Assembly (NCBI GenBank): GCA_004123355.1
Contig: SCHM01000001.1
Location: 4,146,001 to 4,210,000, forward strand
DNA: 64,000 nt
Direction of reading: 5' to 3'
From: Amphirosellinia nigrospora
Lineage: Eukaryota; Ascomycota; Sordariomycetes; Xylariales; Xylariaceae
The translations under genes were made by a program, and so were the position numbers. Of this stretch, positions 40,339 through 48,210 are shown one piece after another. Under the pieces are notes generated by a model. It was given only the letters and a program-made list of their open reading frames with translations, was not told the DNA's origin and did no database searches. Each line of letters starts with the position of its first letter. The stretch's first letter is position 1.

Positions 40339-43300
40339 TTACTCATCCTTCGACTCTTGGGGAATTTCTTCCTGTTCCTCGTCATCATCACTCGCAGCAT
40401 CGACATATTGTACTTCGTCATCCTCACGAATGGGCTGTAGCTTTGCCTCGTCAACTACTACTTCTTCTTCTTCGGAAGACCTTGCTCGGCACGTAGCTGT
40501 TTGACTTTTGACACTGTCATCTGGTAAACGAATTGACCAAGATGCTCTACGCCCTCCATAGTGGCTTCATTAGGGGCCGTCGTTCCTTTTTCTTCGGCCA
40601 AGATGCGACTTGACGGCCACATCTCACCCGTCGATAGCATTAACTTATCTGGTCGTTGGAGAAGTAACTCGAATGCGGATCGAAGCTCGTAACATGCCTC
40701 GAATACCTCCCTTCGGCCAACGATGTACAAGCCAAGGCGGGCGCGGGAAAGTGCCACTGTTAGGCGTCGTATGTCTCGAAGGTAGCCGACCCTCGATGTA
40801 CGTGTAAGTGAGAGAATGATATCTAGATAGAATTAGTGTTTTACATTTTTAAGTACGTAACACGGGACTTCAACTTACAGTCATTTTGTTCGCCCTGATA
40901 TTTATCGACTGTAGTGACGATTTTGGGCATGCCAAAAATGGCCTCGTTCTCACACCGGAAGGCTAGAATGTCTTTGACGAGTGCTCTTTGCCCAGCATAT
41001 GTTGTTAAGATGCTGATTTTTGATGCCGGGTAACCGAGTAACCGCATATACTGATAGAGCGCAACAGCATACTCGGCTTCACCTAGGTTTTGGATGAAGT
41101 GAGGGGTCGGTTCCACTTCTCCATGACCCTTATAATTAGGTACGTCGATGAATTGGTAGTCGTATTTAAACCCAGCATTGGCGGTTTGGAACTCTCTAAG
41201 GCTTTCGACATGCGGTAGATTTCCAAGGTTCGGGTATCTCCACTGGTATAATTCTGCAATGGACGGTCGTGCACGACCCTGTTGGTCAAGGGTGACGACT
41301 GGTATCCCAAACGAACGAGACGGGAGAATAGTGACTGTTCAAGATTCGCATAGTGTCTAAAGGCGAGACTTTGAATTACAGGAGAATTCTGATAATGATC
41401 ACCGCAGAGAACAACCCTCTGTAAGGCCAATTGCCCATCTTTGGGTTTTTGCATAGCGAGAGGAATGAAGTTCTCGATTTCGGTAATTTGTGCAGCTTCT
41501 TCCATCACGACATTGTCATAGTGGAAGCCCAGGGACGCAATCGGATCGTCGCATAGCAGCATGGGTCGACGTCATAGCGATAATGCGAGCTTCGTTCGTA
41601 AGGAGGTAGTTGGCCTTGTCACGGTCTCGTCGCAGGATCTCGAAAGGCTGAACATCCTCCAACTCAGAGAACATTTTTGATATATGTCGGTAGCAGCCTT
41701 TAGCAATATCTACAACAGCTGGTCGAGGGTCTTCGGCGGAGAAAAGCGGCTGGGGTGCATCGAAGAAGAATTCGTGGAAAGGGAATGATTGTATGATATC
41801 CGCAGCGGATGAGCTGTCATCGTTCATAATTTCAGTAAACTTGTTCCAAGCAGGTCGCACATAGACCGAGTTAAAGTAACCAGCTGTCTCTGCCGAGTTT
41901 CCATGAGCGCCTGGCGCACCCATGCTCGCAGCTAGACGATTCACTTCTTGTAGATACCGATCTCGGATCTCCAAAAATGATTCTACTCGCCCATGTTTAC
42001 TAAAACTCCCTTCAGTATCGAGTTCTTCTTCGCCGTGGCCGAGCCGTAAAAGATGTCGCTCATCAATGTCCAAGGCCACGATCTTCGCGAATAGCTGGTT
42101 CAATGCCTGGTTGGAATGGGCGATTAAGAGTGTTCGCTGTTCGGAAGTTGTGATAGATATTGTTGATTATCTGTGTTGCAACATCAGTTTTCCCTGTTCC
42201 CGGTGGTCCAACAATGACAGTCAGGCCCGGTTGAGTTCCAGACATGATAGCTTCAATCTGAGCCGTCGTGAAATGGACCGTATTTAGCTTAGGAGCGTCA
42301 ACAGGATACGGCCCTAAATTTGGTGGTTTATATGTAGAGACTTTATATGTTTCAATTTCGGCAAGCATAGCTGGCTCCGTGTCTCTTCTCCTTTTTTTGG
42401 ATCCTTTCACAGACAATTCTTCCGGCGATTTATCTATCTTTTCAAGAACATAGGGAGGACCAAAACTGCTGGTCACTTCGAAGCCTGGTTCGATGGTCTT
42501 CCCGGGAAGACTAGCAACAAGATGCTGCCAATCTAAAAACGTATCTCGAAAATCAATCCTGCTGACGCGGTTTGCTAAATGTTTATAAGTCGCCCCTGCA
42601 GGGTCTCCATAGCCGAGAAAGTTTTCATGCAACCATGATGCCAATGGGACCTCGGAAAGCGTCAACATACGAATGGATTCGAGTACGGGCTTGAAGTTAT
42701 TCTCCCTGCCACTCCGGCGAACGATGAGGTTAATACGCTCATACACATCTGGTTTGCCTTTTGAGGCTCGTTCCATATCCTCCTTGTACGTCTTGGGGTC
42801 CAGTCGCAATTGCATGCGTCGGGTGGTTGACCTATTCTGGCCACTGAAATAGGCAGAGGGGTCCCTGATCGACTTCCCTTTGTCGTCTAGAATCTGTGCG
42901 ACTTCGGCTGTGCGAACTGTGATAATCCCGAGCTTCTTCGCCTCAGATATACCGTTGTCACTTCCATTCGTTGCAGCTGTCTGTGCGGGGGCATCCACGG
43001 CAATAAGGAAGACAACGTCATCGGGGCGAAGCGAATCCCATTCTCGTCTGATGCGATCCCCTAATCGACGGAAATCGAGCGAGATTTCCGCTCGAACAGC
43101 AGATGGTTTATCATCCCCAACCTGAGGCGGGACCACTTCTAGGATTGAAGGCCGAGATATGGGTAACGCCATCTTTGATGAACCAGCAAAACCTGTCTCT
43201 CCTGACCGTCTCACTTCTGGTCTTAATCGTCGTAACACATCGCTGATGTCTTTTCTTATTCCATAAAATGACTCGCAGCGGTAAAGAATTAAAGCCCTCC

Positions 43301-44781
43301 ACAGAAAATCCCCCACGGACAGATACTGGAGCTTTAGCTTTGGCAGCGCGAGCGGTCGTGAGCCATCATAGTTATCAGTCCTTAGCAGGCTCTGGTCGAA
43401 GAGACTATCCTCTGTCGGGAGTATGCTCATTTCCCGGGCTGTTTCTTGAAAGGTCTTACGTTTCTCGAACGTCGATAGTAATACCTCCATCAAGAAGTTC
43501 CGGTCAATAACCACGTTAGTCGACTCGGGATAATTTGTCCGTAATTCGAGGAGGGACACAAGCTTCACCAGCTCGTCATCCCCTAAAACTTCAAGAAGAT
43601 TTTCGAGATCGTTCCTCCTATCGATAGAAGCATAGTTTGAGAGGGCCAAAACAGTCAGCTTTTCCTTGAAATACCGGAGTGAAACTCTTTGCAGCTTCCC
43701 GAGCTCGGCGCAGTGCCGATCGTATGCTTCGGTCCGGCTGTGTTGTGCTCCCGTCTGGTCGTCAATAGAGAAATGCAGATAATGGCTCAATAAAGCAGAT
43801 TGTTCACGGAGCAAGGTATTGGCCTCATCGCTGAACATAGGTGATAGACGCAAGGCTGGTAGTATATGTAGGTCTTGAAGCAGGCTGTTGACGTATCGTC
43901 GCGTAGGAAGCTGGCTCAACAGGTCCGATATAAACTCAACGAAGCGCTCACAGTATAGGACGTTCTCTTCCGTCCGTTTTTCTGCGTATAGTAATCGTAG
44001 AAAATCCAAGGTGAGCGTATATAGCCAAGCTCTCTCGAAACGTAACCGAGCTTTCATGGTATCATCAGCGGAGTCATACCGTTTACCAGCCGCTTTCCAT
44101 GACTTCTTGAGCTGTGGCGTCTGTGCCAACTTGGTCTCGCGCTTCGCATCAGACGAGAGATTGTGCCAGGTAGCAATGGAGACAAGCGGTGCGCACTCCT
44201 TTCTTACACTAGTCCAGTCCAGACTCTGGAAGGCGAAGATGATGAAGTTCAGGAGGTGTGTTCGAATGGTCCAGGACAGAGTGTGATCAAGACTCATAGA
44301 TAGGACGCGGCTGAACAAGCTCGAGAATTCGGCCGGCCGATCCTCGAATATGCTCCAGGTTTCGAGTCTCTCGCGGGCCTTTACATTGGTCAACAAGGCG
44401 ATCAGGAGAACGTGGAAGTTTGACGAGTTTTCAGAATATCCCGGCCAAAGGTAACTGGGAGTTGTTAGCGGATGGCTAGATAGGCGCAAGGGGGGTTGGG
44501 CGGCTCAGCTGTTGGTACCTTTCTAAAGTCTGTAATCCTTCGAGAACGAGCAACGACTTGTACGCGAAAGCATCCTTCTCCAGCACATCCCATATCTCTT
44601 TCTTCAAGACGTCATTCTTGACCTTGACCTTGGCGGCGCCCTTGGTGGTCTTCAGCCAGTGCCGCTTTGCCAGCTGGGCGAACTCGGACTCACCCTCCAA
44701 GTCGGCAACCGTCGGCCTCGCAGGCGGTTTGTCGCGTGCCTTGGCCCTAGCGGAGCTCTTCAGGCGCTTCGCGGTCGGCAT
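40339..44781 (-). CDS. Intron-binding spliceosomal helicase Aquarius (Cwf11/IBP160-like)
   Basis: Aquarius is an SF1 RNA helicase of the spliceosome that binds introns upstream of the branch site. Exons: 44781-44519 ([18 protein letters not shown]), 44454-40879 and 40822-40339. The N-terminal armadillo-like region ([20 protein letters not shown]) precedes the helicase core. Walker A is [19 protein letters not shown] near 42.19 kb, the DEAD-like motif II is [14 protein letters not shown] near 41.50 kb, and late motifs are [13 protein letters not shown] and [16 protein letters not shown]. Frame breaks: two lost C near 42145, an ambiguous one near 41550 (one extra or two missing bases), one G near 41300 and one A near 40468. 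The last exposes a conserved-looking acidic tail ([20 protein letters not shown]) ending at 40339. Corrected length is about 1442 residues. It is divergent from the THO1 gene. Confidence 0.95.
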
Positions 44782-45498
44782 CGTCGCAAGTATTGTCTAG
44801 AGCTGCTGGGAGATCGGTCGCCGATGGTGCGCATGCAAATGGTGGTTGAGCAGCTCCGGGCTTGGGGCGGCAAACAGCTGCGAGGGCTGCGTGGCTGACG
44901 GCGCATGAGGCTCAGGACGTCATCACCATTCGTGAATTTTTGTGGCGTGGCATAGAGCAGCAGCGTGTTTTTGTCTTAGCCTCGTCGCGTTCCCACGCTA
45001 TAATTCATGTGCTGTAACTGGAGGTTAGGTAGTTCCCTCCCCTCCCCGCTTAGCGTAACTCATGCGCAAATCAATGCGCTAAGCCATATCAGTCAGGCTA
45101 CAGCACACGGCCTCCACTTGCCCGTACCTAACCTAAGTAAGTACTATGTAAATCTTATCTGGAGCTGCCATGCTGCAGCTAAACTAGCGTGATAGTCAGT
45201 CTTAGGTACCTAAGGGAGCGATTGTGCTGTATCCCCCGAGCTTCACAAAGAAAACATCATGTCCCACAGCTAGCTTTACCCATCTAGCTACATATGCGCC
45301 GCGACGGAACACGAGATGCATGTCTCTTGCCCGATCTCTACCAGTTCCTCGTCATCTCCCACTCGTCGCGAAAAAGGTGCACCAATCCCCGTTTGATTCG
45401 ATTCTCCCGAGGCCTACCCACCATATCGAGGGTAAAGAGAACGCTCGTCACACACGTCGATCGCACATCTCGTGAACCACCACCTCCACCACACCGCC
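44782..45498. promoter_or_regulatory. Divergent promoter: Aquarius gene / THO1-GK gene
   Basis: A 717-base head-to-head spacer between two genes for co-transcriptional RNA handling. It contains the 14-base palindrome CTTAGGTACCTAAG at 45201-45214 and a C-rich leader just before the THO1 start. No gene fits inside. Confidence 0.6.
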
Positions 45499-48210
45499 AT
45501 GTCTTTGGCTGGTCTCTCCGAGGACGAAGTGCCTCAAGTGTTGGCCTTGACCGATCTCGTTAAGGAGGCATTAGTCCACGCGCAAGCCCTCAAGCCCGCT
45601 GCAACAATCGAGCCCCCCTTACCAAGTCTCATTTCGAATCCTTCGTTGCTCGTCTGCCTGCAATTTTCGCTCCGCCGGGGCCTACCTCCCAGAGCAGAGA
45701 TGTCGATAAAACTAGATTATATGCTACCGTCGAGACCGCGGCGCGAAAAATCTTCAGCTCCATGGTTGTAAGTCGAATCTACCTCGCCGTCTCCGATCAC
45801 CCGCTAAAAGAAGTGCCCTTAGGCTGGCACGTCTATCAATACTCCTGAGTTCGTCCGTGTCTGGAATCTCTTCGATTTCCTCTCCGTCTTATCCGACAAC
45901 GAGCAGTGCGACCCGGCCCTTCTTTTCTGGCTCGTCGAAGAGCTACTGGACAGCCAGACTGTTGATGGTTGTCGCAAAGTTTTCGATTTTCTCGAGTCCA
46001 GGAGGGAACGGATCACGGCTAAAAACTTGAAGCAGAAGTCCTTAGTTATTCTGAGATCCTGCAATGATCTGCTGCGAAGACTGTCGCGTGCTGAAGATGC
46101 CGCTTTCTGCGGCCGGTGTACATCTTTATGTTCCAGAGTATCCCTCCGGGTGATAGAAGCTCGGTCAATTTGCGCGGCGAATATCACGTTGAGAATGTCA
46201 CAGCCTTTGAAGAAGTTCCCACCGCTCTCGATGGAGCAGCTCCTGACAAAATGGATGTTGACGCAGAAGGCGATAACCCGCAAAACGAGGGTAAGGAGGT
46301 CAAGCCTACAACGAAGGTTGTCTCTTTTGGGTCCAAAACAAGTCCGAATCAGATAAAGCCCTGGATACGGACGCGCTATATCCAGTCTTTTGGTCTCTCC
46401 AGCATTTTTTCAGCCAACCTACCACACTCTTCGACACCTCCAACCTCACCAAGTTCAAGAGCGGTATAGAGGCTACCATAAATGCATTTGAGGCGGTTGA
46501 GAAAATCCAGAAGACCACAAAGGGTCCCGACGACTACAAGTTAATTCCCCAAAAAAGAAAAGGAGCGGAGACGAATGAAGATTTGCGTAGCACTAACAAC
46601 AACCCAAAGTACCTTACAAGCAGAGAACTTTTCGAGCTAGAGGTATGCGCAATGTCTACCTCAGCTACATTTATCGCGGAGCTAACTCAACCGCCGATCA
46701 GATCAGCGATCTCTACTTCAGACGTCACATCCTGATCCAAGCCTTCATAATATTAGACTTCCTGCTGTCTCTCACGCCGCAAGCTAGGGCGAAAATCGCG
46801 AACGTCCAACAGAACAGATCTGTAGTCTACGCGGATAAGAATCTAAGTGAAGACGATGTTAGTAATCCGCCCAGAAATTTCTCGCCATAATCTAACTTTT
46901 CAATAGGCAAAATGGGCCAAAGGCATGAAGGATAGGATCATGGCCTATATACAAGCAGAGTCGGATGGGTTTTTCTTCTTTAGAGTGGTCGAAAGCGTTA
47001 TATCGAGAGATAAGGGTTGGGTTCGCTGGAAAGTAGAGAATTGCCCCCTATTGAAAGACCCTCCGTTTCCCCTGGGGAATTCAACGATGCGAAAGCCAGC
47101 GCAAAACGCCTTGCGACCAGCAGAAGACCCAAGGCAGGTATGAATTCTTTATCCCTCGCCTTCATGGATGAGAAAGACAGCAGTCAATCTCTTGAAAGGT
47201 TGAAGGACCCAGCAAGATGGAAGCTTCCTGATTTAGAAGAGTTCAAGAAAAAGATTGCCACTGACGATCTTGACTTCGACTTTGCCAATACTGAAAAAGA
47301 AAAAACACAACTTCTCGAGTCGAAAGCTAGTAAAACATGGAGAGCCTTGAGAATCGCCAGGCGGTCCAAGCTTGCCACATTTGATAAAATAGAAGACTGG
47401 AGAAACGTTGATGCGATCTTCCAGGAATTAGACGCCGAAGAAACGAAACAGGAGGAGGAGGGTGACGCAAAAGGGCGACAACCGGAGAACAGAAAGCCAA
47501 TAATATTATCCGGGCCTAGTGGCGTGGGTAAATCAACTCTCATCTCTTTGCTACTCGACAGACAGAGGGGCGCATTCAACAAGATCATACAACATACTAC
47601 CCGAACTGCAAGAGAAGGCGAAGTCAACGGCCGGGATTTCTACTTCGTCGATACGAAAACCTTCAATACTATGCTAGACGGAGACTTTTTTCTCGAGACC
47701 AGCACTCATGATGATGTCCAGTACGGTACAAGTCAAAAACTTGTTCATGCTCCAGAAACATCGGACAAGGTTCCTCTCATTCGCCTTGACCAAGAGGTAA
47801 GTTTCCTTCCCTTCTCCAACAACGTGCTACACATGCTACACATGAAGACTAAGCAGTTTATTTAGGGTACTCAAATGGCCAAAGACAATGGGTTCTCTGC
47901 GAGAGTGGTTTTCATTGCTCCGCCAAGCCTAGACGTATTAGAGACTCGCATAAGGAAGGATGGAGCCCTACCCAAAGAAGAAGTTCAACGCAAGCTAAAG
48001 ACTGCTCAAGAGGAGATTGACCAGTCCGGATCTAGCGATCTGTACGACAAAGTTGTCACAAACGATGATCTGGAAAGTGCCTACAAAGAACTAGAGGCAT
48101 TTATATACGAAACGCCCAAGGCCAACGGCATTCACACGGACGAGGCGGCGGATGAGGATGACACCGCGATGAGAGAGGCGACCAACGATGAGGATGCGGG
48201 TGTATCATAA
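45499..48210 (+). CDS. THO complex subunit 1 (Hpr1/THOC1) fused to a guanylate-kinase-like domain
   Basis: THO couples transcription elongation to mRNA packaging and export. The THOC1 part runs from MSLAGLSEDEVPQVLALTDL through LLFWLVEELLDSQTVDGCRK, LVILRSCNDLLRRLSR and FMFQSIPPGDRSSVNL to LYFRRHILIQAFIILDFLL. It continues in the same open frame into a guanylate-kinase fold at about residues 612-800. That fold shows the P-loop SGPSGVGKSTLISLLLD (47.51 kb), HTTRTAREGEVNGRDFYFV, GDFFLETSTHDDVQYGTS, FIAPPSLDVLETRIRK and VVTNDDLESAYKEL. Introns: 45768-45822, 46643-46701, 46858-46906 and 47797-47865; none separates the two parts. Losses near 45616, 46113, 46339 and 47046 break only the THO half. 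Corrected length is about 827 residues. Animal THOC1 ends in a death domain instead. Several GMP-contact residues look altered, so catalysis is doubtful. Confidence 0.9.

Follow-up and report, generated by a model that had tools for sequence, protein, structure and literature searches.

A THO subunit 1 protein fused to a guanylate-kinase-like domain with replaced catalytic residues in Amphirosellinia nigrospora

The closest described counterpart of the gene treated here is MoGuk2 (MGG_06394) of Magnaporthe oryzae, a protein of 810 amino acids in which an efThoc1 domain is followed by a guanylate kinase (GK) domain, GuKc, and which was published in 2017 by Cai et al. (PMC5732230). As given in that article, deletion of MoGuk2 results in developmental defects and reduced virulence; a role of efThoc1 in elongation and export is mentioned, and the name 'Hpr1' occurs nowhere in the main text. 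MoGuk2 is also named a guanylate kinase in the available text of PMC10879430 and PMC7987659. In the open-licence literature of PubMed Central (PMC), the fusion was found described nowhere besides the article of Cai et al.; the available text of PMC3032688 contains nothing on Hpr1 in fungi, and that of PMC5117620 mentions no more than a guanylate kinase of Neurospora. The current study concerns a gene with the same order of domains, located at 45499..48210 on the plus strand of a 64-kb stretch of Amphirosellinia nigrospora DNA (GenBank assembly GCA_004123355.1, contig SCHM01000001.1, positions 4,146,001 to 4,210,000), which is referred to as the window and to which the coordinates of this gene and its neighbors refer.

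The GK domains of MAGUK proteins provide a second point of reference. In comparison with GK enzymes, they differ at the contacts Ser35, Glu70, and Asp101 and are the same at the other five (PMC4325336), and a single hinge change, s36P or f33S, was sufficient to make an ancestral GK a protein-binding domain (PMC4718807). According to the latter article, none of the sequenced fungi that were analysed has a GK protein-interaction domain. The initial annotation of the window described a THOC1/Hpr1 protein running into a GK fold whose altered residues were thought to resemble the MAGUK pattern.

Domain junction and genomic context of the fusion

The THOC1-GK fusion is genuine. A Pfam scan of one open reading frame (ORF) of 283 codons on the plus strand (47014-47865) identified the C-terminal part of efThoc1 (PF11957, profile positions 339-484; 47041..47484; E 3.1e-21) and, two residues on, the beginning of Guanylate_kin (PF00625, profile positions 2-95; E 4.4e-24), and these E values exclude chance for both domains. 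The adjoining ORF (47866-48207) carries profile positions 109-180 of Guanylate_kin (E 1.9e-12). As delimited by Pfam and residue alignment, the GK domain comprises a first exon part with the P-loop and the GMP-binding region (47491..47796) and a second one with the lid and the C-terminal helix (47866..48108), followed by an acidic-rich C-terminal tail plus the stop codon (48109..48210). In-frame ATG codons of the junction ORF are located at 47140, 47164, and 47671, the last of them within the GK domain, and then in the intron stretch at its end. The 108 codons before the GK domain lack any in-frame ATG, so that a GK gene with a start of its own is unlikely, and the single ORF together with the missing ATG argues strongly against two genes instead of one. 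Both domains lie in the order, on the strand, and at the place claimed by the initial annotation.

The remaining efThoc1 profile is spread over ORFs upstream of the junction ORF, all on the plus strand: positions 1-91 at 45859..46125 (E 9.9e-34 and 7.8e-32), 89-124 at 46116..46268 (E 3.6e-9), 128-243 at 46337..46645 (E 2.2e-16), 241-285 at 46696..46839 (E 2.5e-7), and 285-361 at 46886..47107 (E 6.9e-12). The last piece begins within the putative intron 3, spans one frame change, and has one TAG inside. The curated efThoc1 cut-off of 27 bits was exceeded by four of the five ORFs scanned, and the efThoc1 part weakly matched the THO complex subunit 1 chains 7znk and 7apk, e.g., 7znk_A at 45823-46104 (E 2.7e-4). 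In the junction and GK ORFs, Pfam reported efThoc1, Guanylate_kin, P-loop NTPase cross-matches, and DUF1840 below the cut-off; the partner domains SH3 and PDZ had no match there. A scan of viral_contigs for relatives of the fusion, the query of which ended in translated intron, returned 12 pattern matches and no relative.

Across the genome examined (48.1 Mb in 11 contigs), a profile search with E values up to 0.1, in which all three candidates were scored, placed efThoc1 at one locus, the fusion gene, in six pieces. Because this locus is the only one found, the fused protein is, as far as the efThoc1 profile can see, the THO1 subunit of the organism. Genome profile searches also recovered, over the cut-off, Tho2 on contig C5 (E 8.9e-95) as well as THOC7 and THOC5 on contig C6 (E 2.7e-20 and 2.9e-13). 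Among 14 control genomes, Guanylate_kin was matched in 10 and efThoc1 and Tho2 in none, while THOC7 in one and THOC5 in two stayed below the cut-off; matches over the cut-off were therefore found in 0 of 14 each for Tho2, THOC7, and THOC5.

Guanylate_kin has three loci in the genome, i.e., a canonical GUK1 (contig C4, 627 kb), the fusion gene, and a third one (contig C4, 9.229 Mb). A search for a separate canonical GUK1 had been proposed in the initial annotation, and it was successful. The third, GUK1-like sequence (C4:9229113-9229659; L008 1614-2160) contains one stop and two frame changes, lacks the GUK1 intron, and represents either a relic copy or assembly errors. It is flanked by two pairs of direct repeats of 40-50 nt, 80 and 88% alike and approximately 3 kb apart.

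Active site and origin of the fused domain

The GK part has the fold and the profile of guanylate kinases. Its residues were compared with a reference set of the best 80 of 566 confirmed bacterial GKs, whose search patterns permitted Ser or Gln at position 34 and Tyr or Phe at position 50, with the lid outside the patterns; past position 78 or so, residues are numbered by their offset within the fused protein. At 5 of the 20 columns that are invariant in 80/80 bacterial GKs, the fused domain differs, compared with 0 of 19 scorable columns in GUK1 and 0 of 20 at the third locus. The broken columns are the hinge Ser34, which is Gln, Tyr50, which is Phe, a Gly before the DxD strand, which is Asp, and the two arginines of the lid, replaced by Asp and Lys. 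With relaxed thresholds, the fused domain, GUK1, and the third locus differed at 6/28, 0/27, and 1/28 columns for 78/80 and at 8/33, 1/32, and 2/33 columns for 76/80. In addition, the fused domain has Arg in place of the first acid of DxD (position 98), for which 68 of the 80 bacterial GKs have Glu and the other 12 Asp. The P-loop is intact, and its Lys, the phosphate arginines Arg38 and Arg41, Glu69, Tyr78, and the second acid of DxD are kept. In these points, i.e., the intact P-loop, the replacements at positions 34, 50, and 98, and the retained contacts, the alignment bears out the initial annotation, and the altered active site concerns positions that are kept by all 80 bacterial GKs. The loss of the two lid arginines, each of which is Arg in 80/80 bacterial GKs, is missing from it.

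Contacts of an enzyme with guanosine monophosphate (GMP) have been published in a numbering that includes Met (PMC4325336): Tyr51, Tyr79, Arg39, and Arg42 bind the phosphate, Lys15 and Asp99 the ribose, and Ser35 and Glu70 the base, while the lid residues Arg136 and Arg147 are able to touch phosphate. Aligned to these contacts, the fused domain has no counterpart of Ser35, Asp99, or either lid arginine, whereas three of the four phosphate contacts as well as Lys15 and Glu70 are still present; the pairing of the arginines is our own matching. Since several invariant catalytic residues are replaced, efficient GMP kinase activity is doubtful, and it is plausible that efficient catalysis has been lost.

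The tree, which took 40 of the 80 bacterial GK rows, separates the three GKs of this genome from the other rows by one branch (100/98). No end branch is longer than that of the fused GK (3.01 versus a median of 0.45), and the tree tool flags the placement of so long a row as unsure. The identity is 61/174 between the fused GK and GUK1 and 92/162 between GUK1 and the third locus. Intron 4 of the fusion gene (47797..47865, plus strand, 69 nt, phase 0), which is predicted from splice signals, and the putative GUK1 intron occupy the same position in the same phase, after Glu and before Gly in the segment following DxD, and the third locus reads through this site without an intron. The grouping in the tree, the shared position and phase of the putative introns, and the identities suggest that the fused GK arose within this lineage from a gene of the GUK1 type and then changed fast. 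Capture from bacteria is not favored in view of the grouping with the GKs of the own genome and the putative intron site shared with GUK1, although the placement of the long row is unsure.

Gene model and neighboring genes

From start to stop codon, the fusion gene would encode about 827 amino acids, an estimate that depends on splice sites predicted from the sequence. Apart from intron 4, splice signals indicate putative introns at 45768..45822 (intron 1), 46643..46701 (intron 2), and 46858..46906 (intron 3), all on the plus strand. The THOC1 part furthermore contains four frame changes, near 45616, 46116, 46338, and 47047, with the pieces two bases apart at most; three of the four sit at single-base runs, and the THO-GK junction is left untouched. 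The one uninterrupted reading path described in the initial annotation therefore exists at the junction, within a single stop-free ORF, and upstream it is broken by putative introns and by four frame changes that leave no room for an intron.

Two other genes of the window break likewise, with one clear case each of a frame break too short for an intron at 41305 (AQR-like) and 32654 (eIF4G-like), so that assembly errors are the likely cause of the frame changes; true damage of the fusion gene is possible. Programmed frameshifting was set aside in view of the similar breaks in these two genes. Of the further junctions in other genes of the window, two AQR-like ones and one eIF4G-like one gave no clear call, and a Pol-alpha-like one looked like an intron; AQR-like, eIF4G-like, and Pol-alpha-like are names given by eye from translations, with no search behind them. 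The divergent neighbor of the THO1 gene is an Aquarius-like (intron-binding helicase) gene at 40841-44796 on the minus strand, likewise named by eye. Neither Rfam at gathering scores nor the tRNA scan detected anything in the 64-kb window.

Possible roles and comparison with known systems

We tentatively favor, at slightly less than an even chance, the explanation that the fused GK no longer turns over GMP efficiently and has become an arm of THO for docking or nucleotide sensing. The C-terminal arm of the one THO1 gene found is a GK fold in the MoGuk2 architecture. It would descend from the GUK1 type and have given up efficient GMP turnover while retaining the P-loop together with Arg38, Arg41, and Tyr78, which make up most of the phosphate pocket, and it would dock a partner or sense a nucleotide for THO, as MAGUK GKs do, though via other residue changes. 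With a docking module of this kind, a GK enzyme would have become an interaction domain for a second time, independently, and in a kingdom for which no such domain is reported (PMC4718807); phosphorylation or guanine nucleotides would thereby be linked to the core complex of mRNA export. In a bolder and unlikely version, fungi independently of animals evolved a GK-derived interaction domain by joining a GUK1-type gene to a THO subunit; having lost the hinge serine and the lid arginines, it would now control the assembly of messenger ribonucleoproteins by reading either a guanine nucleotide or a partner that is phosphorylated, and the MoGuk2 phenotypes would largely be those of a THO mutant and not of a purine-enzyme mutant.

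Several observations weigh against a docking or sensing arm. In MAGUKs (PSD-95, Dlg, CASK, p55, and PALS1), the hinge residue is Pro, whereas it is Gln in the fused GK, and at the positions that match s36P and f33S by our own matching of numbers, the fused GK has Gln and Lys. Since MAGUKs change Ser35, Glu70, and Asp101 and keep the others, its pattern is unlike theirs: of this trio only the Ser is altered, and Tyr51 and Asp99, which lie outside the trio, are altered instead. The resemblance to the MAGUK residue pattern that had been proposed initially was thus not confirmed. The retained P-loop Lys, Arg38, Arg41, Glu69, Tyr78, and second DxD acid would also suit an enzyme, and we know of no binding partner of the fused GK. 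The predicted structure, in which translated intron 4 is the sole stretch with a predicted local distance difference test (pLDDT) score below 50, was modeled with translated intron 4 included and from an alignment with 53 of the 80 bacterial enzyme-type GKs, and it is silent on catalysis. MoGuk2, compared here by its published description, is reported as an active GK, whereas several GK-invariant residues are replaced in the fused GK. As described by Cai et al. (PMC5732230), guanosine diphosphate (GDP) in a yeast diploid strain was 6.72 with MoGuk2, 2.92 with the empty vector, and 3.54 with MoGuk1; in the MoGuk2 deletion mutant, GDP and guanosine triphosphate (GTP) were lower and GMP was higher, and its germination, appressoria, and infectious growth recovered in part when GDP or ATP was supplied. 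The authors concluded that MoGuk2 acts in GTP synthesis. None of the three MoGuk2 deletion constructs, the one lacking the P-loop among them, brought vegetative growth back (PMC5732230), so the P-loop matters. The docking explanation is weakened by this missing rescue and by the different contacts changed in MAGUKs.

Owing to the MoGuk2 data, a working guanylate kinase has to be considered, which would top up GDP and GTP, perhaps near the site of transcription, the last point going beyond the MoGuk2 proposal. The yeast GDP rise, the pool shifts, the partial rescue by GDP or ATP, and the retained P-loop and GMP contacts all argue for it. We nevertheless regard it as somewhat unlikely: a quarter of the 20 invariant columns are replaced, both lid arginines among them, acid 98 is Arg, the genome has a separate canonical GUK1, and the yeast assay read the GDP of cells and not a purified protein (PMC5732230). 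The very long branch and the several active-site losses would also be expected of a structural remnant that stabilizes the THO1 C terminus without a ligand while its active site drifts, but the retained P-loop Lys, three of four phosphate contacts, and 15 still-matching columns of 20 make this quite improbable. That two neighboring genes or an assembly join were taken for one gene is very improbable indeed; the frame changes of the THOC1 part do suggest assembly errors, but the junction lies in a clean ORF, the 108 codons before the GK lack a start, and the architecture has been published in another fungus (PMC5732230).

The docking explanation also touches on the reading of the MoGuk2 mutants. 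The construct lacking efThoc1 failed to rescue virulence and conidial morphology, whereas those lacking GuKc or the P-loop rescued both in part (PMC5732230), and the construct results fit a leading role of the THO part, with the P-loop contributing as well. Should MoGuk2 be the THO1 of its fungus, some of the mutant phenotypes may stem from the loss of THO. Against such a rereading stands the naming of a second M. oryzae protein, MGG_04399, as MoThoc1 or 'similar to THOC1' (PMC9767378).

The A. nigrospora protein shares with MoGuk2 the N-terminal efThoc1 and the C-terminal Guanylate_kin in one protein, a similar length (810 versus an estimated 827 or so amino acids), and the presence of a separate Guk1 in the genome. 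It differs in the number of introns, with three in MoGUK2 and four predicted here. With THOC1/Hpr1 it has the efThoc1 family in common, and it adds a GK after efThoc1; to our knowledge, yeast Hpr1 and human THOC1 are without a GK domain. From Guk1/GMPK, the fused GK is distinguished at the hinge Ser, Tyr50, acid 98, and both lid arginines. The architecture is therefore already known from MoGuk2, and the novelty of the A. nigrospora gene is the set of replaced catalytic residues.
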